Below, piece after piece: positions 2,677 through 25,608 of a stretch of DNA of 64,000 bases. The notes below the pieces were generated by a model. It did no database searches. It was not told the origin of the DNA and worked only from the letters and a program-made list of their open reading frames with translations. The stretch is from Corynebacterium stationis (GTDB lineage: Bacteria; Actinomycetota; Actinomycetes; Mycobacteriales; Mycobacteriaceae). The stretch spans positions 1,178,001 to 1,242,000 of the forward strand of contig NZ_CP009251.1 of the NCBI RefSeq assembly GCF_001941345.1, given 5' to 3'. The position numbers were made by a program, and so were the translations under genes. Numbering within the stretch: position 1 is the stretch's first letter; the number at the start of each line of letters is the position of its first letter.

Positions 2677-4953
2677 ATGAGTCCACGCAATAGCGGGAAA
2701 GCACAAACCCCAAATAACCAGGTCAGCTTCGCAAAAGATGAAGACTTTGACATCCTCGAGGCAACCGCCGTTTTGGATAATGGTGACTTTGGCACCCGCA
2801 CCATCACTTTTGAAACTGGCCAACTAGCCCGTCAAGCTGATGGATCTGTCACCACTTACTTCGATGATGACACCATGTTGTTGACCACCGTGACTGCATC
2901 GAACCAGCCACGCGAAGGCTTTGACTTCTTCCCACTGACCGTGGATGTGGAAGAGCGCATGTACGCAGCAGGTAAGATTCCTGGCTCTTTCTTCCGCCGT
3001 GAAGCACGTCCTTCAACCGAAGCAATTTTGGCTTGTCGCTTGATTGACCGTCCGCTGCGCCCAACCTTTGTTAAGGGCCTGCGCAACGAAGTTCAGGTCA
3101 TCAACACCGTGTTGAGCCTGGATCCGGCAGAATACTACGACGTCATTGCTATCAATGGCTCGTCCGCAGCAACCCAGCTATCCGGTTTGCCAGTTTCTGG
3201 CCCAGTCGGTGGCGTACGCATGGCGCTGCTGGCTGATGATAAGCACCCAAAGGGACAGTGGGTAGCGTTCCCGAATGCTGAACAGCATGAGCGCGCACTG
3301 TTTGAAATGGTCGTTGCTGGCCGAATTGTTAACCGCAAGCAAAAGGGCAAGAACGTCGATGACGTTGCCATCATGATGGTTGAAGCAGGCGCTGGCGTGC
3401 ACGTGCACGAACGCATTGCGGAAGGGGCACCTGCACCACAGGAATCCACCGTGGCAGAAGGCCTGGAAGCTGCAAAGCCATTCATCAAAACCCTGTGTGA
3501 AGCACAGGCAGGTCTTGCTGAGCGTGTTGGTAAGAAAACCAAGGAATTCCCGCTCTTCCCGGCCTATGCAGATGAAATCTATGATGCGGTGGCACGTAAG
3601 GCCGAAAAGAGGCTTGGCAAGCTGCTCACCATCGCCGCAAAGCAGGAGCGCGACGACGCAACCAATGCACACATGGAAGAAGTAGAAGCGCAGCTTCTGG
3701 AAGTATTTACTGAAGCAGACGCTTCCAAGCAGATCCGCGCAGCTTATAACCAGCTGATGAAGGAAATTGTGCGTGAGAAGATTCTCACCGAAGGTTTCCG
3801 CATCGACGGTCGTGCAGCAGAAGACATTCGCGACCTCGGCGTAGAAATCGGTCTGATCCCGCGCGTCCACGGTTCCGCACTCTTTGAGCGTGGAGAGACC
3901 CAGATTCTGGGCGTAACCACCTTGGATATGCTCAAGATGGAACAGACGATTGATTCTTTGACTCCAGTGGAGTCCAAGCGCTACATCCACCACTACAACT
4001 TCCCGCCATACTCCACCGGTGAGACCGGACGCGTTGGCTCTCCAAAGCGTCGCGAAATTGGTCACGGTGCATTGGCTGAGCGTGCACTGTTGCCAGTTAT
4101 CCCTTCCCGCGAAGACTTCCCGTACACCATTCGCCAGGTCTCTGAGGCACTGGGCTCCAACGGTTCGACTTCGATGGGTTCCGTTTGTGCTTCGACGATG
4201 TCGCTGTACAACGCAGGTGTTCCATTGAAGGCACCTGTGGCTGGTATCGCCATGGGTCTGGTTTCTGGTGAGGTTGAAGGCACGGAGCGCTTCGTAGCCT
4301 TGACTGACATCTTGGGCGCAGAAGATGCATTCGGCGACATGGACTTCAAGGTCGCAGGGACCAGTGACTACATCACCGCACTGCAGCTCGATACCAAGCT
4401 TGACGGTATCCCTTCTGAGGTCCTGGCTAGCGCTTTGTCGCAGGCACGCAATGCCCGTGAAGAGATCCTCGACATCATGGCTGAAGGCATCGACGGCCCA
4501 GATGAGATGTCCTCGCAGGCACCAAAGATTACTTCGATTAAGATTCCAGTATCGAAGATCGGTGAGTTGATTGGCCCTAAGGGCAAGACGATCAACACCA
4601 TCACGGAAGAAACGGGCGCTGATGTCTCTATCGAAGATGACGGTACAGTTTACGTTTCCGCGACTTCCGGTGAAGCAGCGGATGCAGCAATTGAAAAGGT
4701 CAATGCCATTGCTAATCCGCAGCTACCTAAGGTGGGCGAGCGCTTCTTGGGCACGGTAGTCAAGACTGTAGCCTTTGGTGCCTTCGTTTCCATCACCCCG
4801 GGTCGCGACGGCCTGATTCACATCTCTAACCTCGGTGGCGACGAGCGAATCGAAAAGGTTGAGGATGTAGTCAAAGTTGGCGATAAGATACAGATCGAAA
4901 TTGCTGATATTGATAACCGCGGCAAAATCTCCCTGGTTCCAGTTGAGGCTTAA
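2677..4953 (+). CDS. pnp: polyribonucleotide nucleotidyltransferase (PNPase)
   Basis: PNPase is a trimeric 3'-to-5' phosphorolytic exoribonuclease; in bacteria that make ppGpp the actinobacterial form has also been named GpsI. The 758-residue protein shows the full domain order: a first RNase PH domain (about 30-170), an alpha-helical linker, a second catalytic RNase PH domain (about 385-590), a KH domain (about 616-675, with [11 protein letters not shown]) and a C-terminal S1 domain (about 686-757, with GRDGLIHIS). The [15 protein letters not shown] loop appears here as [20 protein letters not shown] at 2660-2666 precedes ATG 2677 at normal spacing. It stands between two terminators and is probably transcribed alone, with leaky read-through from rpsO possible. 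Confidence 0.97.
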
Positions 4954-8708: not shown

Positions 8709-10807
8709 ATGAATCCCGAAACCGCCCCCGTAAGGTAACCCGAAAGGCGGGTCCACCTGCGGAGGCGCAGGAAACCGCTTCGAATGAGGCGGCTTCGCCT
8801 GTTTTCCAGGCACCGGACAACTCTGCAACTGATTCTGCAGTGCAGAAGAACGAAAATTCCGGTAACTCCGAGAAGAGCTCGGAGAATAAAAACCAGGGTG
8901 AGAACACCAATCGTCGCAACCGCTCCCGCGGCTCCCGCGGACGCGGCCATGGCGGAAACAATGGCCAAAACAACCAGGGCGACGGAAACCAGGGCGGACG
9001 CAACAACCGTCGTGGCGGCAACAATAACAATCGCCGCAATGTTCCAAAGTCCATGCAGGGCGCGGATCTGACCAAGCGTCTTCCACAGCCACCAAAGCAG
9101 GCCAAGGGATCCCTGCGTATTTATGCACTGGGCGGCATTTCTGAAATTGGCCGCAACATGACCGTCTTCGAATACGACGGCAAGCTTTTAGTCATCGACT
9201 GTGGTGTGCTGTTCCCATCCTCCGGTGAGCCTGGCGTTGACCTGATCCTGCCTGACTTCGGTCCGATCGAGAACAAGCTCGACAAGATCGAAGCACTGAT
9301 CATCACCCACGCCCACGAGGACCACATTGGTGCTATCCCATGGCTGTTGAAGCTGCGTTCTGACATCCCAATTGTTGCTTCGCGCTTTACCATTGCTTTG
9401 ATCGCTGCAAAGTGTAAAGAACACCGTCAGCGTCCAAAGTTCATTGAAGTTAACGAAAAGTCGGACGTCAGCTACGGTCCATTCCGTGCACGCTTCTGGG
9501 CAGTGAACCACTCCGTTCCAGACGCGCTTGGCGTCATGCTGGGCACCCCAGCAGGCAATGTCATCCACACTGGTGATATCAAGCTGGATCAGACTCCACT
9601 GGATGGCCGTCCAACTGACTTGCCAGCGCTTTCTCGTTACGGCGATGAGGGCGTTGACCTCATGCTGTGTGACTCGACGAATGCAAATATCCCAGGCGTT
9701 TCTGCATCTGAAGGTGATATCCCAGCTACCTTCAACCGTTTGGTTGCTAGTGCTCGTCAGCGCGTAATTATCGCGTCCTTTGCATCGAATGTTTACCGCG
9801 TGCAGGCTGCCATCGATGCCGCTGTAAATGCCGGCCGTAAGGTTGCTTTCAACGGTCGTTCGATGATGCGCAACATGGAAATCGCAGAGAAGATGGGCTT
9901 CTTGCGAGTTCCACGCGGCACCATTGTGTCGATTGAAGACGCTGCGAAGATGGCTCCGCACAAGGTTGTACTGATTACGACCGGTACACAGGGTGAGCCA
10001 ATGGCTGCGCTGTCGCGTATGGCACGTCGTGAGCACCGTCAAATCACGGTTCGTGATGGCGACATGATTGTCTTCTCTTCCTCCCTGATTCCAGGTAACG
10101 AAGAAGCTGTCTATGGCGTCATGAACATGCTTTCGCAAATCGGTGCTGAAGTCATTACCAATAAGGAAGCTAAGGTTCACTCCTCTGGTCACGGCTATGG
10201 CGGCGAACTGCTCTTCCTGTACAACGCAGCGCGTCCTAAGAATGCCATGCCTGTCCACGGCGAATGGCGCCACTTGCGTGCGAACAAAGAATTGGCAATC
10301 TCCACCGGTGTCGACCGCGATCGCGTAGTTCTGGCACAAAACGGTGTGGTTGTTGACCTCCAAAATGGTCGCGCACAGGTAGTCGGACAGCTGACCGTCG
10401 GCCACCTCTACGTCGATGGTGTCAACATGGGTGAAGTGGATGCGGATACTCTCGCGGACCGTACCAACCTGGGTTCCGGCGGCGTGGTTTCCATTACCTG
10501 TGTCATTGATAACCGCACCTCTCGTCTGCTTGAGCACCCATCGGTAGCAACCACGGGCTTTAGCGATGACGACCGCGGAATCGTTCCAGAGGTCGCTGAG
10601 ATGGTGGAAAACACCATGAACGACCTAGCATCCGAAGGCGAAAACGACACTTACCGCATGGTTCAGCGTCTACGCCGCAAGGTATCTAAGCTGATGGATT
10701 CTAAGTACAAGCGTGAGCCAGTTATCTTGCCAACGATTATTGCGACTTCCGGTGAAGTCCTCGTGGCTGACGAAGATGACGTAAAGGCAACGCGTCCTTC
10801 CCAGTAG
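8705..10807 (+). CDS. rnj: ribonuclease J
   Basis: RNase J is a metallo-beta-lactamase-fold ribonuclease with endonuclease and 5'-to-3' exonuclease activity, used in rRNA maturation and mRNA decay. The 700-residue protein has the zinc motif HAHEDH (about residues 202-207), [10 protein letters not shown], and the beta-CASP features SSGHGYGGE and PVHGEWRHL. The first ~130 residues are an unusual low-complexity tail, acidic/Ser-rich then Arg/Gly/Asn-rich, before the catalytic core begins at [10 protein letters not shown]. Similar long basic tails occur in actinobacterial RNase J. ATG 8705 overlaps the dapA stop codon. It may cooperate with PNPase, encoded earlier in the window. Confidence 0.95.
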
Positions 10808-18165: not shown

Positions 18166-19008
18166 ATGGCTAACCCGTTCGTGAAGGCGTGGAACTACCT
18201 CATGGCGTTGTTTGACTCCAAGATTGAGGAGCACGCTGACCCTAAGGTACAGATCGAGCAAGCAATTCAAGACGCACAGCGTCAGCACCAGGAATTGTCC
18301 CAGCAGGCAGCAGCAGTTATTGGTAACCAGCGTCAGCTGGAGATGCAGCTCAACCGCCGCTTAGGCGAGATTGAGAAGCTGCAGGGCAATACTCGTCAGG
18401 CACTGGAGCTGGCTGACAAAGCTCGCGCTGATGGCGATGAGAGCAAGGCTGTTGAGTACGAGAACGCAGCTGAAGCATTCGCTGCACAGCTAGTTACCGC
18501 AGAACAGGCAGTTGAAGATTCCAAGCGTCTGCACGACCAGGCGCTGCAGCAGGCAGATCAGGCGAAGAAAGCAGTTGAACGTAACGCTGGCACCCTGCGC
18601 GAGAAGGTCGCTGAGCGCTCGAAGCTGCTGAGCCAGCTGGAGCAGGCGAAGATGCAGGAGAAGGTATCTGATTCGCTGTCGAGCATGAACGAGCTAACCA
18701 ACACCTCCGGTCCTTCTTTGGACTCTGTGCGTGACAAGATTGAGCGTCGTTATTCGAAGGCTTTGGGTCAGGCGGAATTGGCATCTAACTCCGTGGAAGG
18801 GCGCATGGCTGAGGTTCAGCAAGCTGGTATCCAGATGGCCGGTCACTCACGCTTGGAGCAGATCCGAGCTGAGATGAACTCCAACAACGCAGTGGAGACT
18901 GGTTCTTCCGCATCCAACAAGTCGATTGAAGCGGGCGCTAATGATGCAGCTCCTTCAGCTTCTGATGACGCAGTTCAAGCTCGTCTGCGTGAACTACGCG
19001 GTGAGTAG
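18166..19008 (+). CDS. pspA: PspA/IM30 family phage-shock protein
   Basis: PspA is a peripheral membrane protein that assembles into ESCRT-III-like rods on stressed membranes. The 280-residue product begins with the amphipathic-helix region [20 protein letters not shown] and continues as a long Gln/Glu/Ala-rich coiled coil (about 25-220) with the family phrase [20 protein letters not shown]. The C-terminal part (about 225-280) is Ser/Ala-rich and ends in [11 protein letters not shown]. In actinobacteria the clgR-pspA pair is a stress-response unit; here the two are separated by 171 bp with iterated repeats, so pspA likely has its own promoter as well. A strong terminator follows. Confidence 0.92.
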
Positions 19009-19028: not shown

Positions 19029-19065
19029 AAAAAGGCGGTGTCGTTAATCGACATCGCCTTTTTCG
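19029..19065 (+). terminator. pspA terminator
   Basis: AAAAAGGCGGTGTCG (19029-19043) pairs with CGACATCGCCTTTTT (19049-19063), with one G-T pair and a 5-base loop, ending in a T-tract. Confidence 0.85.
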
Positions 19066-19071
19066 TGTTCA

Positions 19072-19268
19072 ATGGGGGTCATGACGACAACGCAGACTTG
19101 GCCTATTACCTGTACAGGCAGTGGTCGCGGACCAGCTTTGACCAACCTCGCACTCGCTGCTGGCCACCAAATAGTAGCAACTACACGTTAAGGCACACTT
19201 CCCATCGGAGACCCACGTTTTGTTCAGATTCAGCTCGATCCGGCCGATATGCAAGATTGCAGGTCAGG
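19072..19268 (+). pseudogene. short-chain dehydrogenase remnant, N-terminal piece
   Basis: Reading from ATG 19072 or 19081, the frame gives MTTTQTWPITCTGSGRGPAL then NLALAAGHQIVATTR, which is the Rossmann start (TGxxxGxG and the following helix and strand) of a short-chain dehydrogenase/reductase. A TAA stop at 19189-19191 interrupts it. The same frame then continues with DPRFVQIQLDPADMQD, the next beta strand of the family. Homology fades near 19268, where GC-rich island DNA begins. The first Gly of the cofactor motif is replaced by Cys, so it had decayed. The matching C-terminal piece is at 24680-24994 on the same strand, beyond the ars island. Confidence 0.7.
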
Positions 19269-19394
19269 AAGATGTGGAACACTTTTCGATCCCCGGCGGA
19301 TGAAGTGCCGGTGTTTTCCTGCAGCGATCGAAACTCCACTCATCTCGTTGTGCTGACGACAGAATGTCCTTCGGGGTTGCCGGCCAGGCGGGGG

Positions 19395-20390
19395 TTACTT
19401 GACGGTCATGCCGAATGAGTCCGAGATGGACCGGGCGGTCTGCTTGGCGTAGAGGCCTACCCCGGTGAGTGTGGCGGATCCGGGGCCGGTCCAGTCGCCA
19501 TAACCGACCAGGTGCAGGCCCGGGTATTTCGGGGTGGTGCCGTCCAGGAGCCGGCGCACCGGCCCGAGGGACGGCCGAAACCCGGTACACCAGATCAGAT
19601 GATTGGCCCGTACTTCGTTGAGGGAGCTGAACATCGGCGTCGCCGCCAACCATCCGGCGTCGCGGGCAGCGCGCACCTCAGGCAGCACGACAATGTCGCC
19701 GAGCTCCGAGTCGGCCCCCGGATCGGTCTCGCCGCGCTGGACGGCCAGGGCGCGTTGTCGGTTCCGGCGAAACAGCACCCGTCCGTCGACATCATCGGGC
19801 ATCCACCGTGGTGGATGGCGGGTATACCAGGTGACTTCGGCAACACCGGTGAGTTCGGCGGAGATCTGCGCGGCGGAGTTCGCCGCCCCCACCACCGCCA
19901 CGGACGACCCCCGGAAGGGGCCCGCCCCGGGATAGTTCGCCGAATGCCACTGCGTGCCGGTAAACAATCCCGGGTAGGCCGGGACGAAGGGAGTAGACCA
20001 GGTACCGGTGGCGGCTACGACATGGGGAGCCGTCCACGACCGATCACCGGCGTGGAGGCGGTAGCCTCCATCCTCCCGCTCGACGCGGTCCACGTGCACG
20101 GGGCGCTCGACGGGGATCCGGTAGCGCTGCTCATAGTCGGCAAGGTAGTCGATGACATGGTCCGACGGTGGGAATCCCTCGTAGGCTGGCATAGGCTTGC
20201 CCGGCAGGCTGGAGAACTCCGCGGTGGAAAACAACGTCATTGATGGCCACACATGCCGCCACGCCCCACCGGCATCCTCCTGATCGTCGAGGACCAGGGT
20301 GTCCACGCCTGCTCGCAGCAGGTAGTAGGCGGTGGCGAGCCCCGCCTGGCCACCGCCAATAATGATCGCCTCGAAGTGTTTGCTGGTCAC
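19395..20390 (-). CDS. arsO: flavin-dependent monooxygenase of the ArsO type
   Basis: The 331-residue protein has an N-terminal FAD fold (IIIGGGQAGLATAYYLL), a second dinucleotide motif for NADPH (VVGAANSAAQISAEL, with Ala replacing the usual middle Gly) and the closing FAD contact GDWTGPGSATLTG. This layout is that of ArsO and related flavoprotein monooxygenases found in ars operons; their proposed role is oxidising arsenic compounds, but the reaction is not well established. The start is GTG 20390; AGGAGA lies 12 bp upstream, a rather long spacing. It follows arsR on the same strand by 33 bp and probably shares its arsenite-inducible promoter. Codons are GC-rich compared with flanking chromosomal genes. 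Confidence 0.78.
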   Translation of the reverse strand: MTSKHFEAIIIGGGQAGLATAYYLLRAGVDTLVLDDQEDAGGAWRHVWPSMTLFSTAEFSSLPGKPMPAYEGFPPSDHVIDYLADYEQRYRIPVERPVHVDRVEREDGGYRLHAGDRSWTAPHVVAATGTWSTPFVPAYPGLFTGTQWHSANYPGAGPFRGSSVAVVGAANSAAQISAELTGVAEVTWYTRHPPRWMPDDVDGRVLFRRNRQRALAVQRGETDPGADSELGDIVVLPEVRAARDAGWLAATPMFSSLNEVRANHLIWCTGFRPSLGPVRRLLDGTTPKYPGLHLVGYGDWTGPGSATLTGVGLYAKQTARSISDSFGMTVK

Positions 20391-20423
20391 GTGTGTGATC
20401 GTCTCCTGCTCGTCGGTGGTGGT

Positions 20424-20771
20424 TCAGTCCATCTGCAACACGGTGCGCAGCTCCGCGAACAGCTCCGGGCGCACCTGATGGGTCACCGTCCGGCCGACCC
20501 GGACCTTGTCCAATAACCCAGCCTCGGTCAGCCGCTTCAGGTGGTGCGACACGGTCGGCTGACTCAACCCCGACGTCTCTGTCAGCTCTCCGACGCTGAC
20601 CGGGCCGCAGCCTTCGGCCGCTAACTGCGATAGCAAACGCAGGCGGGCGGGATCGGCCAACACCTTGAACAATGTGGCGTAGCGTTCGGCCTCACCACTG
20701 GTCAAGGGGCCAGCGCCCAGTGAGCAACAGGCGGATAAGTCCGCCAGCGGGAGAGTCTGCGAGAGTGTCAT
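20424..20771 (-). CDS. arsR: arsenite-responsive repressor ArsR
   Basis: This 115-residue winged-helix repressor has the ArsR/SmtB recognition helix GLSQPTVSHHLKRLTEAGLL. With the ATG at 20771, Cys15 and Cys16 (SACCSLG) and Cys55 (EGCGPVSV) fall exactly at the positions reported as the arsenite-binding triad of C. glutamicum ArsR, a site distinct from the classical ELCVCDL metal site, which is absent. That agreement is why I prefer this start to an ATG 9 bp upstream. The gene is divergent from the ACR3 gene across an 80-bp region that holds a large inverted repeat, the likely operator. It probably represses both directions until As(III) binds. Confidence 0.92.
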   Translation of the reverse strand: MTLSQTLPLADLSACCSLGAGPLTSGEAERYATLFKVLADPARLRLLSQLAAEGCGPVSVGELTETSGLSQPTVSHHLKRLTEAGLLDKVRVGRTVTHQVRPELFAELRTVLQMD

Positions 20772-20784
20772 ACCAACCATCCTA

Positions 20785-20836
20785 TATTGACAAGCATCGA
20801 TATCAAGGCTACTTTTTGTATTGATGCTTGTCAATA
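20785..20836. promoter_or_regulatory. divergent ArsR operator (inverted repeat)
   Basis: TATTGACAAGCATC (20785-20798) is a perfect inverted repeat of GATGCTTGTCAATA (20823-20836). The similarity extends inward with a few mismatches (TTGATATC against TTTGTATT). Each arm contains a TTGACA-like sequence and could be an ArsR site overlapping the divergent promoters. Confidence 0.72.
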
Positions 20837-20851
20837 CTGCGAAAGGCTCGT

Positions 20852-21970
20852 ATGAATTCTGACCACCGCCCACGCATGACCTTTTTAGATCGCTTCTTGC
20901 CGGTCTGGATCATTCTTGCCATGGCCGCTGGCCTGCTCATCGGCCGGGTCGTCCCCGGTATCGGTGACGCCCTGGGCGCTTTAGAGGCCGGTGGGATTTC
21001 CCTGCCGATAGCACTTGGCCTGCTGGTGATGATGTATCCGCCGCTGGCGAAGGTTCGCTACGACAAGGCCGGTGAGATTGCCGCTGACAAACGCCTAATG
21101 ACCGTGTCCTTAGTGCTCAACTGGCTGGTCGGTCCGGCTTTCATGTTTGCCTTGGCCTGGATCTTCCTGCCGGATCAGCCGGAACTGCGCACCGGATTGA
21201 TCATCGTCGGCCTGGCTCGGTGTATTGCGATGGTGCTCGTCTGGAGTGATCTGTCGTGTGGTGACCGGGAGGCCACGGCCGTGCTGGTGGCGATCAACTC
21301 GGTGTTCCAAGTCATCATGTTCGGCGTACTCGGCTGGTTCTACCTCCAGGTCCTGCCAGCCTGGCTGGGCCTGGCGACTACCTCGGCGGAATTTTCCTTC
21401 TGGTCGATCGTGGTTTCCGTGCTCGTATTCCTCGGCATCCCGCTGGCCGCCGGCGTGGCCTCCCGAATCATCGGTGAAAAAACCAAGGGCCGTGCCTGGT
21501 ACGAAAACACCTACCTGCCGAAGATCTCCCCGCTGGCACTGATCGGCCTGCTCTATACCATCGTGCTGCTGTTTTCCCTGCAGGGGGAGCAGATTACCTC
21601 CCAACCGTGGACCGTGGCCCGCCTGGCTGTGCCGCTGCTGGCCTACTTCGTCGGCATGTTCGCCATCGCACTGATTGCCGCGAAGGCGTCGGGAATGAAT
21701 TACGCTCAGTCGGCGTCGGTGTCGTTTACGGCCGCGGGCAATAACTTCGAGCTGGCCATCGCCGTGGCCATCGGCACCTTCGGGGCGACCTCCGCACAGG
21801 CGCTGGCCGGCACGATCGGCCCGTTGATCGAGATCCCAGTGCTTGTCGGCCTGGTCTACACCATGCTGTGGCTGGGGCCGAAACTCTTCCCCCAGGATCC
21901 GACCCTACCTGTATCCTCGACACCGTCCCCGCAGACTGCTGTATCCGAGAAGGAGAACTTCACCTCATGA
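20852..21970 (+). CDS. acr3: arsenite efflux transporter ACR3
   Basis: ACR3 (also called ArsB or arsC-linked Acr3) exports arsenite with the proton gradient. The 372-residue protein has about ten membrane segments and the family's two conserved features: the catalytic-cysteine region ([17 protein letters not shown]) and the downstream [16 protein letters not shown] segment. ATG 20852 with GAAAGG just upstream is preferred over TTG 20828. The gene is divergent from arsR, and its stop overlaps the arsC start (ATGA), so the pump and reductase are translationally coupled. Confidence 0.95.
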
Positions 21971-22386
21971 GCACCCACCCAACAGTCCTGTTCGTCTGCG
22001 TCGGTAACGGCGGCAAGTCCCAGATGGCCGCAGCCCTGGCCGCTAAGCACGCCGGTGACCAGATCGAGATCCACTCCGCCGGCACGACACCCGGCACGAA
22101 GCTCAACCCCCAGTCCGTCGAGGTTATCGCCGAGGCCGGTGCCGACATGTCCGCAGGCCACCCTAAGGGTGTAGATCCACAGCTGTTGCGCGAGGTCGAC
22201 CGCGTGATCATCCTGGGAGGTGATGCCCAGCTGGAGCTACCCGACGATGCCCGCGGTACGTGCGAGCGGTGGGTGACTGACGAGCCGTCCCAGCGTGGGA
22301 TCGAGGTCCTGGAGCGCATGCGTCTAGTCCGTGACGACATTGACACCCGGGTGCGCAGGCTCCTCGCCGAGCTGCTCGAGAACTGA
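21967..22386 (+). CDS. arsC: arsenate reductase, mycothiol-dependent LMW-phosphatase type
   Basis: The 139-residue protein is of the low-molecular-weight phosphatase fold. It shows the oxyanion loop [15 protein letters not shown], where the usual Arg is replaced as in the corynebacterial single-cysteine enzymes (Cg_ArsC1/2), and VTDEPS as the acid loop. There is no second redox Cys pair, which fits the mechanism in which mycothiol forms an adduct with arsenate and mycoredoxin reduces it. It makes As(III) for the ACR3 pump encoded just upstream; the 4-bp overlap couples both. A strong GC-rich hairpin follows the stop codon. Confidence 0.93.
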
Positions 22387-22403
22387 CCACCCCACCTGAC
22401 ACC

Positions 22404-22442
22404 ACCAACGACCCCGCGCGATTCCCGCGCGGGGTCGTTGGT
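22404..22442 (+). terminator. GC-rich terminator after arsC
   Basis: ACCAACGACCCCGCGCG (22404-22420) pairs perfectly with CGCGCGGGGTCGTTGGT (22426-22442) with a 5-base loop. It lacks a long T-tract but lies 17 bp after the arsC stop, where a terminator is expected. Confidence 0.7.
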
Positions 22443-22510
22443 GTCTGCACCGGCTGTCAGCGTCCTCGTCCGGGAGCCGGACACGCTGGTAGAGACCGGG
22501 ATGTGTCGGG

Positions 22511-22648
22511 TTAGGACGTAGCCTGCGGGTGCTGCTCCTCCTGGTCACTGGTGGTCTCAGTGGTGTCGGTGTCGTCGTCGGCGACGATCTCGACCCCGCA
22601 GCAGTCGGAGGTGGAGTTTTTCTTGGTAAACAGGTCCTTGAAACCCAT
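22511..22648 (-). CDS. small Cys-pair protein linked to the ArsP-like permease
   Basis: The 45-residue protein begins MGFKDLFTKKN, continues with SDCCGVEIVADDD and ends in a Thr/Glu/Gln-rich acidic tail. Its ATG (22648) is preceded by AAAGGA. Small proteins of this type, with a positively charged N-terminal helix and a CC pair, are often encoded next to DUF318/ArsP-type permeases and are described as putative metal-binding proteins. It is the last gene of the arsR2-permease group, starting 32 bp after the permease stop codon. A role as an arsenic or metal chaperone, or as a permease partner, is inference. Because of its size it would be missed by common gene callers. Confidence 0.7.
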   Translation of the reverse strand: MGFKDLFTKKNSTSDCCGVEIVADDDTDTTETTSDQEEQHPQATS

Positions 22649-22680
22649 GAGAGTGTGTCCTTTCGGTAGGGGTACGTGGT

Positions 22681-23574
22681 TTAGAGGATGATCGTCATCG
22701 CGTAGCCGGCCAGCATGGCCGCCAGCAGAATCGTGATCACGAAGGTGGCCAACAGTTTTGGCTTGAACACCGCCGCCAACATGGAGACCTCCGGCGGAGA
22801 GGCCCCCGCCCCGCCGATCATCATCGCGAAGATCGGGCCGATGGCCACCCCGGCACCCGATAAAGCCAGGGCGACCGGCAGCATCGTCTCCAGTCGGACA
22901 TACAGCGGGATACCGATCACCGCAGCTAGTGGAATCAGCCACCAGACGTTTCCACCGGCCATAAATCCCAGGCCGTCTTCGGGCACGCCCCCGTAGATGA
23001 ATGCACCGATGGACACGCCGATGATCATCGGAAGGAGCATGGGGCGAAGATCGTCCCATGCCTGACGGATCGCTGCCGGGGTTTCTTGTTTGATTCCACG
23101 CCACGGGGTCCCGTCCAGCTGGCGACCGCCCTTGACCTTGACCTTGCGCAGCTGGTCTTCCATGCCCAGCGCGGTCCAGGCCCAGGGTGCTCCCAGCGAC
23201 AGCAGCACCATGATCACCGCGTAGCTGATCGCGACCTGCCAGGTAAAGATCAGCCAGATCCCGCCGACGATAACCGGGTTGAGCAGCGGCGAAGCGATCA
23301 GGTAGGTCACGGTGGTACGAAAGGCCACCCCGGCTTTGAGCATGCTGACAAACATCGGGATCGTCGAACAGGAACAAAACGGAGTGATCGCCCCCAATGC
23401 CAGTCCTTTGACCTGGCCGGGAACCGCTCCACCAGCCATCCAGCTCTGCAACCGCTCCGGGCCGAAGCGCCGGTTGATCAGCGCGACCGCATAGGAGATC
23501 ACCAGAAACAGCAGGAGCAGTTCGACCAGGAGGATAGTGAACGTGCCGAGCGCGCTAATCAGCATCAACGACAT
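22681..23574 (-). CDS. ArsP-like (DUF318) permease
   Basis: The 297-residue membrane protein has around eight hydrophobic segments and the family signature GAITPFCSCSTIPMF, in which the CSC pair is the likely substrate thiolate site. ArsP members export trivalent organoarsenicals, and others have been linked to different metals. The second half shows SPLLNPVIVGG and MMIGGAGASPPEVSML, typical of the DUF318 family. ATG 23574 overlaps the end of arsR2 by 20 bp; a second ATG at 23565 is possible. It is encoded with an ArsR-type repressor and a small Cys-pair protein, making a separate regulated unit inside the ars island. Confidence 0.85.
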   Translation of the reverse strand: MSLMLISALGTFTILLVELLLLFLVISYAVALINRRFGPERLQSWMAGGAVPGQVKGLALGAITPFCSCSTIPMFVSMLKAGVAFRTTVTYLIASPLLNPVIVGGIWLIFTWQVAISYAVIMVLLSLGAPWAWTALGMEDQLRKVKVKGGRQLDGTPWRGIKQETPAAIRQAWDDLRPMLLPMIIGVSIGAFIYGGVPEDGLGFMAGGNVWWLIPLAAVIGIPLYVRLETMLPVALALSGAGVAIGPIFAMMIGGAGASPPEVSMLAAVFKPKLLATFVITILLAAMLAGYAMTIIL

Positions 23575-23944
23575 CGTTTCTCAGGGAGGTGTCCGTGCAG
23601 CAGGCGCGTTGTCCCTCCGGGGTCAACGTCGCCAGGTGCGCCAGCCAGCGCACCGGATCAGCCAGCTGAGCACAACACACCGAATTCAGCGTGGCACGAC
23701 CCCTCGGCTCCGAGTCCACCAGTCCGGCCTTGCGCAGGGCAGCCAGATGATGGCTGACCAACGCCTGACTCATCCCGGTGACCTCATGGAGCTGGCGGTT
23801 GGTCATCGACGTCTCCGCCAAGGTGAGCAGGATCGTCAACCGGTTTTCATCCGACAGCGCGGCCAGTGTGGGTACGAGTAACTGGGCCCGCTCGGCGGGA
23901 CTGAGATCCGACGCGGGGATGGATAAGGAAATCTCTGTAAGCAC
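23555..23944 (-). CDS. ArsR-family repressor of the permease unit
   Basis: The 129-residue protein is a winged-helix ArsR/SmtB regulator with the recognition helix MSQALVSHHLAALRKAGLV. Its only cysteines are two pairs near the C-terminus, NSVCCAQL and GQRACCTDT, unlike the Cys15/Cys16/Cys55 site of the other ArsR in this island. This suggests that it senses a different ligand, for example a methylated or aromatic arsenical or another soft metal. The start is GTG 23944. It overlaps the permease gene by 20 bp. An imperfect palindrome with TAACAAG and CTTGTA arms lies just upstream and is the likely operator. Confidence 0.85.
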   Translation of the reverse strand: MLTEISLSIPASDLSPAERAQLLVPTLAALSDENRLTILLTLAETSMTNRQLHEVTGMSQALVSHHLAALRKAGLVDSEPRGRATLNSVCCAQLADPVRWLAHLATLTPEGQRACCTDTSLRNDVVDAD

Positions 23945-23950
23945 ACTCCG

Positions 23951-23976
23951 ATATTAACAAGCGAGTACTTGTATTT
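23951..23976. promoter_or_regulatory. operator-like palindrome of the second arsR
   Basis: ACAAG (23957-23961) and CTTGT (23968-23972) form an imperfect palindrome in an AT-rich context immediately upstream of the GTG start at 23944. It resembles the ArsR box before the first arsR (shared CAAG/CTTG halves). Confidence 0.5.
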
Positions 23977-23995
23977 CAAGCAATGGTTTGAACAT

Positions 23996-24025
23996 CGGGA
24001 AAGGGGTTCCTTCCGGCCTTTCCCG
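23996..24025. terminator. hairpin between the ars genes and the resolvase
   Basis: CGGGAAAGG (23996-24004) pairs with CCTTTCCCG (24017-24025). It could insulate the ars unit from the resolvase region or belong to a recombination site; no U-tract follows. Confidence 0.4.
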
Positions 24026-24026
24026 A

Positions 24027-24140
24027 GCGTCTCACTTTCAAGGAAGTGGGACACCATCAATGACAATGGATTGAAAATACACAGTCCCAGGAGGAGCATG
24101 TCCCACAAGTCATGCCACAGCCATGTCCCATAATGTCCGC
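24027..24140. other. possible res-type recombination site upstream of the resolvase
   Basis: This AT-richer stretch holds several copies of a TGTCCCA/TGGGACA word: GTGGGACA at 24047-24054, GTCCCA at 24084-24089, TGTCCCAC at 24099-24106, TGTCCCA at 24124-24130 and TGTCC at 24134-24138. Repeated inverted half-sites directly upstream of a serine resolvase gene are typical of res sites. The exact dyads were not defined. Confidence 0.4.
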
Positions 24141-24171
24141 TACAGAATGGACTTCCGGCACTATTCTGGTT

Positions 24172-24672
24172 ATGGATACTGGCTACGCCCGGGTGTCGAC
24201 CGCGAAACAGGACCTTGACCGACAGATCGGCGCTCTGCGCCAGGAAGGTATTGCCAGCAAATACATTTACGTTGATAAGAAATCCGGATCCACCACCAAC
24301 CGCCCCGGACTGCACAAGGCACTGGATCAGGCCCGTGAAGGCGACGTCATTGTCGTCCACACGCTCGACCGGTTGGGGCGCACGGTGCGGGATACGTTGA
24401 ATCTGATCCATGATCTTCAGGAGCGTAACGTCGGGGTGCGCACCCTGGCTGATCCCATGCCAGTTGATTCTTCGAACCCGGATGACCCGATGGCCCAGTT
24501 GGCGGTGGTGATCCTCTCAATGTTCGGACAGATGGAGCGCACTTACGTTAGTGAGTGCGCAGCGCATGCTCGGATCGTGGCGGAATCCAAGGGTAAACGA
24601 GCCGGCTGGCCCTGCGTGGTCGACCCCGACAAGCTCTGCTACGTGGAACACGTCTGTGCAGATGGCTTCTGA
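24172..24672 (+). pseudogene. serine recombinase (resolvase/invertase), C-terminally truncated
   Basis: The reading frame encodes about 166 residues of a resolvase/invertase-type serine recombinase. It has the catalytic start GYARVSTAKQDLDRQI with the nucleophilic Ser, DRLGRTVRDTLNLI with the active-site Arg residues, and MERTYVSECAAHARIV leading to the long E helix. Full-length relatives continue with a C-terminal HTH domain of 40 or so residues, which is missing: the frame breaks off after VVDPDKLCYVEHVCADGF. The end coincides with the junction to the dehydrogenase remnant, so the gene was probably cut when the island landed or was later trimmed. Without the DNA-binding domain, activity is unlikely. 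Confidence 0.75.
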
Positions 24673-24679
24673 CATCTGA

Positions 24680-24994
24680 GTAAACGCCTTCTGGGAATCA
24701 CAGTGGGCAACCTCAGAAATTCAGTTCAGCAGACCGAACCGCGACTATGATGAACTGCGCGAACAAGTCTTAGGGACAGCGGCGGTTCCATGACCCAGTG
24801 AACCGGGAGCAACTGGTGGAGGAATTAGTCCGGAGGATATCGTGCGCAGCATCTGCACGCACGTTTCCGCAGATAGCGGACCACTACGTCTTGTCTTAGG
24901 TGACGGAGCTGCGGAACAGAGCACGATGGTGCTCGAAAATAGGAGACAGTACTACTCGAACAAACTGGATCGAGAGCCCAAGCCGCATAGCTAG
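24680..24994 (+). pseudogene. short-chain dehydrogenase remnant, C-terminal piece
   Basis: The frame from 24680 to the TAG at 24992-24994 reads VNAFWESQW, then RPNRDYDELREQVLG, a TGA stop at 24791-24793, and ISPEDIVRSICTHV followed by SGPLRLVLGDGAAEQ. This is the layout of the C-terminal third of classical short-chain dehydrogenases, where a Pro-Leu-Arg-Leu-(V/L)-L-G-(D) motif follows the substrate-loop helices. It is in the same orientation as the N-terminal remnant at 19072-19268 and probably belonged to the same gene. About 110 central codons are missing, replaced by the ars island. Its last codons overlap the end of the convergent bioN gene. Confidence 0.65.
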
Positions 24995-25608
24995 TCACCA
25001 AAGCCGCGGGCTTGAAGAGCTTCGCCGATAGCGCGTGCGCGTCTAATAGAGCGAATCAACACTGGGGTACCAAAGGCCGAGATAGAAAAGCCGGCGCCGC
25101 GTGCTTTGCGGGCATCGAGTACTTCACCCACGGTGGCAAACATTAATGGAATCAGCCGTATCGTCAATGACATCGCTAAGGTGACGTTTTCTACAGGAAA
25201 GCCAAAGCGACCAAGCGGTGCCAGTGAGGTCTCAACAGAGTCCATGATTTCATCGACCGTCGACGTCAAGGTCAATAAGAAGGCAATGAGGATGGCAGAG
25301 AAAATAGACAAGAACATGGTCAGCGCATAGTCCAAGTCTTTTGCCCACCATTGAAAAGCCGCTAATGGGATCACGATAATCAACGGGGGCCACAGCTGCG
25401 ATAAAGCTACGCGCGGCGGAATAGCAGCGAGAAAATAGAATGCCACGGCGATGCCACAAGCTAGCAACCCACGCAGTGGGGTTGTCGCTAGTAGGGAGGT
25501 AGTGATAACAAAGACGATGATAAAGAGCAGTTTCCAGCTGGCACGCAGGCGGTGAACGGGGGTGTCTTTATCAACATAGACAGCTAGCGGGATGTTTTTG
25601 GTCTTCAT
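24991..25608 (-). CDS. bioN: biotin ECF transporter T component BioN
   Basis: BioN is the energy-coupling transmembrane T component of the biotin ECF transporter; it links the ATPase to the substrate-binding BioY. The 205-residue protein has about five hydrophobic segments and, near the C-terminus, the two coupling helices with ALDARKARGAG-like (LDARKARGAGF) and AIGEALQARGFGD sequences that contact the ATPases. It overlaps bioM by 4 bp. In C. glutamicum the order bioY-bioM-bioN is the same, and the operon is repressed by BioQ and induced on biotin limitation. The organism probably cannot make enough biotin and depends on uptake. Confidence 0.93.
   Translation of the reverse strand: MKTKNIPLAVYVDKDTPVHRLRASWKLLFIIVFVITTSLLATTPLRGLLACGIAVAFYFLAAIPPRVALSQLWPPLIIVIPLAAFQWWAKDLDYALTMFLSIFSAILIAFLLTLTSTVDEIMDSVETSLAPLGRFGFPVENVTLAMSLTIRLIPLMFATVGEVLDARKARGAGFSISAFGTPVLIRSIRRARAIGEALQARGFGD

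Follow-up and report, generated by a model that had tools for sequence, protein, structure and literature searches.

The breaking of a dispensable gene by a resistance island is a well-known phenomenon, and the locus described here is an unremarkable, if clear-cut, example. The described systems with which it can be compared are the ACR3-type arsR-acr3-arsC operons and the Tn3-type transposons. We analyzed a stretch of 64,000 nucleotides of Corynebacterium stationis DNA (the window; positions 1178001-1242000 of a 2.81-Mb contig), the nearest named relative of this genome being Corynebacterium sp. J010B-136. The window carries a 5.4-kb ars island (19259..24693; G+C content of 0.62) whose gene content is like that of arsR-acr3-arsC operons. 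An ACR3 arsenite efflux transporter (20828..21970, plus strand; TIGR00832, 415.7 bits, cut-off 282.8) and two arsR-type regulators (20424..20786 and 23555..23944, both on the minus strand; PF01022, 52.4 and 55.4 bits, cut-off 22) scored above their cut-offs, and an ArsC-type low-molecular-weight phosphatase, likely an arsenate reductase (21967..22386, plus strand), scored 60.1 bits for PF01451 (cut-off 23.2) while falling under the NCBIfam arsC cut-offs. Unlike those operons, the island adds an arsO-type flavin monooxygenase (19395..20390, minus strand; NF040505, 434.9 bits, cut-off 425) and an ArsP-like permease (22681..23574, minus strand; PF03773, 141.5 bits, cut-off 32.3) as well as the second arsR.

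Among the components of a Tn3-type transposon, we found a serine resolvase of 169 amino acids that has lost its C-terminal part (24163..24672, plus strand; PF00239, 118.5 bits), its relatives at loci L120 and L121 having 200 amino acids. A second serine-resolvase gene is represented by a fragment at the left end of the island (19259..19345, minus strand), of which 19268-19338 is 76% identical to the L121 resolvase gene (Pfam Resolvase). None of the seven island genes submitted to Pfam had a transposase match, and no intact transposon terminus was recognized by eye, both island ends being truncated. The right end consists of a 38-bp resolvase-associated motif of the GTCAGAAG type (24656..24693; 86.8% identical to L120 7420-7457), which recurs near resolvases and is at most a candidate transposon inverted repeat.

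The left chromosomal neighbor (18166..19008, plus strand; G+C content of 0.555) is a pspA-like gene, which we call pspA after the first-pass annotation, and the right neighbor is a bioN-like gene (24991..25608, minus strand; 0.521), whose name also comes from that annotation; neither had an NCBIfam match at an E value of ≤1e-10. A bioN homologue was present at E ≤1e-30 in 231 of 242 Corynebacterium genomes. Between the two neighbors lie, in this order, an N-terminal piece of a short-chain dehydrogenase (SDR) gene, the ars island, and a C-terminal SDR piece. A terminator-like hairpin with a T-run stands 3' of pspA (19029..19063, plus strand), and the SDR homology starts inside the T-run, at 19061.

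Together the pieces represent the start and the end of a single classical SDR gene broken by the ars island, as the first-pass annotation had proposed for two plus-strand fragments flanking GC-rich ars genes. That annotation had assigned the N-terminal piece to the right gene but had placed it at 19072-19268; the remnant occupies 19061..19263 on the plus strand and comprises a conserved leader of about 20 bp, an ATG at 19081, and residues 1 to 60. Its frame gives MTTTQTWPITCTGSGRGPALTNLALAAGHQIVATTR from 19081 and meets a TAA at 19189. The C-terminal remnant (24694..24994, plus strand) covers the protein from about residue 179 onward; read from 24680, to which its frame is open, it passes through a TGA at 24791 and ends with a TAG at 24992-24994, reaching the stop of bioN. 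The in-frame stops at 19189 and 24791 had both been reported before and were seen again here.

When each piece was searched separately against the 242 genomes, the same gene was returned from the same four genomes, and the outcome that had been named as contrary, namely, matches to different genes, was not found. The C-terminal piece matched four genomes at E <1e-30 (its own, J010B-136 at 4.7e-53, C. suranareeae [G241] at 4.1e-42, and G079 at 8.0e-31), with the next-best match at 5.2e-4, and the N-terminal piece gave the identical four of 242 at E ≤1e-9. Both pieces aligned to the intact SDR gene of C. suranareeae with strand and order unchanged, 19061-19263 with 68% DNA identity (E value = 4e-25) and 24694-24970 with 78% (E value = 2e-60), corresponding to protein identities of 65% and 76%, respectively. 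The SDR gene of G079 was 67% and 77% identical in DNA to the N- and C-terminal pieces, which were again colinear within one gene on one strand; this G079 gene has an uninterrupted reading frame whose last part deviates from the family. Among the best 120 of 530 related proteins (8,000 candidates scored), 120 were matched by the N-terminal piece and 119 by the C-terminal piece. Pfam searches with either short piece gave no family above threshold, and the protein of the intact C. suranareeae gene matched adh_short (PF00106, E value = 4.7e-40).

The pieces aligned to residues 1 to 60 and 179 to 268 of the best relative, with residues 61 to 178 absent. The central codons had thus been correctly described as replaced by the island, although their number is 118 and not about 110. 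The catalytic residues of SDRs (Ser and Tyr-x-x-x-Lys) sit in the central segment. Since the remnant is without this part, no active SDR is possible, and the window copy, which is colinear with the C. suranareeae gene at both ends yet lacks residues 61 to 178 and has two stops, is an SDR pseudogene. The expectation that the site and the size of the deletion could be pinpointed was borne out for the site, both junctions having been placed; the size is measured against non-locus relatives, because the SDRs of C. suranareeae and G079 lie at other loci.

At the right junction, the 38-bp motif runs directly into the SDR. At the left junction (19259..19263), the window reads GCAGG, where the C. suranareeae SDR and the other island copies read GCCGG and the G079 SDR reads GCCGA; this short resemblance is possibly a trace of microhomology joining. 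The island recurs, whole or in part, at 95 to 97.5% identity at different sites in further Corynebacterium genomes as well as on plasmid pLEW279a, and it was found at 96% or more in seven of the 242 genomes (its own included) and on one plasmid. The site and both junctions are fixed here for an ars island found in 7/242 Corynebacterium genomes. The six copies outside this locus (G063, G010, G116, G105, G215, and pLEW279a) differ in extent: all match from 19259 except G215, which matches only from 19353, and most of the island length is matched only in G063, G105, and G215. G010 and pLEW279a are without inner parts of the island, and G116 matches 19259-20659 only. On the right, the copies end at 24373 (pLEW279a, G063, and G010), 24499 (G105), or 24300 (G215). 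To the left of 19259, pLEW279a, G063, G010, G116, and G105 have at least 24 more identical bases in common, as has an additional, collapsed copy in G063; the left end is therefore missing from the window copy. That 19259 might be a natural end of the element, given that four copies align only from this position, was ruled out because five of the six copies extend farther left.

In J010B-136, the island stands at the identical locus with both junctions identical. This independent genome rules out an assembly artifact as the source of the split, and the pair of genomes with identical junctions allows the spread and decay of the island to be followed. Compared with the window, the J010B-136 island was found to be without roughly half of arsP, arsR2, and the N-terminal 100 residues of its resolvase. 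Neither of the window stops (19189 and 24791) is present in J010B-136, which has a frameshift of its own in the N-terminal piece. With the split shared and the stops not shared, the stops are later than the split, in agreement with one of the two first-pass suggestions, decay since the insertion rather than before it; in the case of the TAA at 19189, the conclusion depends on a common history of the junction and the outer part of the N-terminal piece.

We then considered the same interval in other genomes, surveying 36 loci that represent 28 distinct other genomes (five named loci and L065 to L067 being repeats). The earlier view of pspA and bioN as syntenic was upheld, the two genes adjoining each other in 27 of the 28; the exception, G170, has no pspA near bioN. 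The spacing between them, taken from alignment ends, was 74 to 133 bp in 26 genomes and 822 bp in G083. The related view of the SDR as part of this syntenic chromosome failed: SDR and ars genes were absent between pspA and bioN in all 28 other genomes and likewise in G079, in which the two genes are neighbors. It had been proposed to look for an intact dehydrogenase at this place in relatives without ars genes, and none was found (0/28 and G079). At a laxer limit (1e-3), L062 gave a single weak match to arsO, 65 residues with 29% identity, which was discounted; it falls within the bioY region. In C. suranareeae and G079, the SDR is 403 kb and 1.26 Mb, respectively, from bioN. The absence of the SDR from this locus in other genomes indicates that it is not conserved chromosome but a later, lineage-specific addition, and its ancestral membership of the pspA-bioN region is not supported. 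It arrived either intact or with the island already inside. In G083, a second bioY-like gene, 75% identical to that of the window, lies between pspA and bioN (L058, 7714-8280), which shows that the interval took other insertions. Just before the start of the G079 SDR (L069, complement, ~10720-10740), we observed an inverted repeat, AACGAGACG / CGTCTCGTT, possibly the operator of the divergent gene that it adjoins, which appears TetR-like by eye.

The reading we prefer, at a probability of roughly 0.75, is that the SDR was added at this locus, that a mobile ars segment then entered it, and that the remnant decayed separately in two lineages. The pspA-bioN interval would have gained the SDR gene in the lineage of the window genome and J010B-136, and the gene would then have been entered by the ars segment, which in Corynebacterium moves together with resolvase genes and is also carried by a plasmid. 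The left end of the island, lying inside a resolvase gene, would have been lost and SDR codons 61 to 178 replaced, in the same event or in a following deletion; either the insertion itself or a later one-sided deletion may have removed the 118 codons. After the split, the SDR ends would have gathered separate lesions in the two lineages. Because no intact SDR was found between pspA and bioN in the genomes examined, we infer, rather than observe, that the SDR came first. The converse order, in which the SDR had been broken by the island on a plasmid or another chromosome before the two moved in as a unit, appears unlikely to us. It would fit the 28 other genomes in which the locus is without the SDR, the rarity of this SDR group in the genus (4/242 genomes, at other sites in C. 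suranareeae and G079), and the presence of the island at several places. It is opposed by the flanks of the other copies, since no SDR sequence was found beside the six outside copies, the collapsed G063 copy, or a 77% relative on pCmaris1 in the stretches examined (about 750 bp for the left flank of G105), and, weakly, by the distal C-terminal SDR of J010B-136, which looks recently selected. Among 995 matching plasmid records (E limit of 1e-40), no SDR reached 60% identity to this one. As SDRs are numerous in bacteria, two unrelated SDR-like fragments could also have come to flank the island by chance; the return of the same rare gene from the same genomes in separate searches and the colinearity in C. 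suranareeae and G079 rule this out, and we give it a negligible probability.

Counting against the preferred reading, the window and J010B-136 differ patchily in their SDR ends, a pattern not explained by one insertion followed by even decay. Beside the right junction, 4 of 119 SDR sites differ, compared with 42 of 178 farther out (Fisher test, P value = 5e-7). With C. suranareeae as the outgroup and nine ambiguous sites omitted, the distal changes at codon positions one, two, and three number 5, 7, and 3 in the window and 2, 3, and 13 in J010B-136 (Fisher test, P value = 0.005, to be read lightly because several contrasts were examined), as if the J010B-136 distal SDR had perhaps been under selection for longer than that of the window. 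Third positions also differ less in four island genes (42/974) than in eleven chromosomal genes (218/2464; P value = 3e-6). These patterns fit a refinement in which one lineage first received the island in its SDR and the other acquired it afterward by homologous recombination through the SDR flanks, its own SDR being functional until then; they hint, without proof, that J010B-136 acquired its island later in this way. We hold this refinement only tentatively. No comparable contrast appears in the N-terminal piece (5, 2, and 2 versus 5, 0, and 3), which also carries a frameshift in J010B-136, and the first of the 11 chromosomal genes has an island-like third-position rate (0.048). At the protein level, the distal family-conserved positions changed in 7 of 32 cases in the window and 2 of 32 in J010B-136, which is not significant (P value = 0.15), with 5 of 23 changed in both beside the junction and 10 of 34 versus 8 of 34 in the N-terminal piece. 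Island trees show no clear donor: they place the window and J010B-136 together for arsO only (support of 0.56) and apart in the three other segments tried. With no clear sister relationship between the two islands, either recombination has since affected the island or its history is more complex. The fuller form of the idea, that the broken SDR served as a shared landing pad by which the island crossed two Corynebacterium lineages through short SDR flanks, without transposition in that step, and replaced the middle of a working SDR in the second, strikes us as conceivable but slightly more doubtful still.

Several observations concern the island copies themselves. Three copies (L114, L115, and L002) have the resolvase cut at the same point, 24373, and remain nearly identical for about 36 more bases before diverging, a form that the window copy does not have. 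The collapsed copy in G063 (L119, G063:C1:551000-558000, at 2901-3359) consists of 129 bp of the left end joined to arsR2, with the interior gone. The 3' part of arsP in J010B-136 (L060, ~10077-10549; window 22681-23313) is 15 to 17% diverged from five other compared copies, and arsO of the same genome is just 2.1 to 3.4% diverged from seven close copies. Among the papers listed in literature searches, none dealt with this locus; pLEW279b is named in PMC3350403, and a term search of that text gave no mention of arsenic. Plasmid pLEW279a (Corynebacterium sp. L2-79-05, NC_009128) shares arsO, the permease, arsR, and the start of the resolvase with the window at 96 to 97% identity. In contrast to the window copy, which keeps acr3, arsC, and arsR1 but is cut at 19259, the plasmid copy extends further left and is without acr3, arsC, and part of arsR1. 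The breakpoints of this loss fall at 9085-9098 of the plasmid (L002), corresponding to window positions 20592 and 22454, and an 8-bp repeat, CTGTCAGC, read by eye at 20579 and 22454 of the window, stands at both of them, which suggests that acr3 and arsC were lost from pLEW279a by a repeat-mediated deletion.
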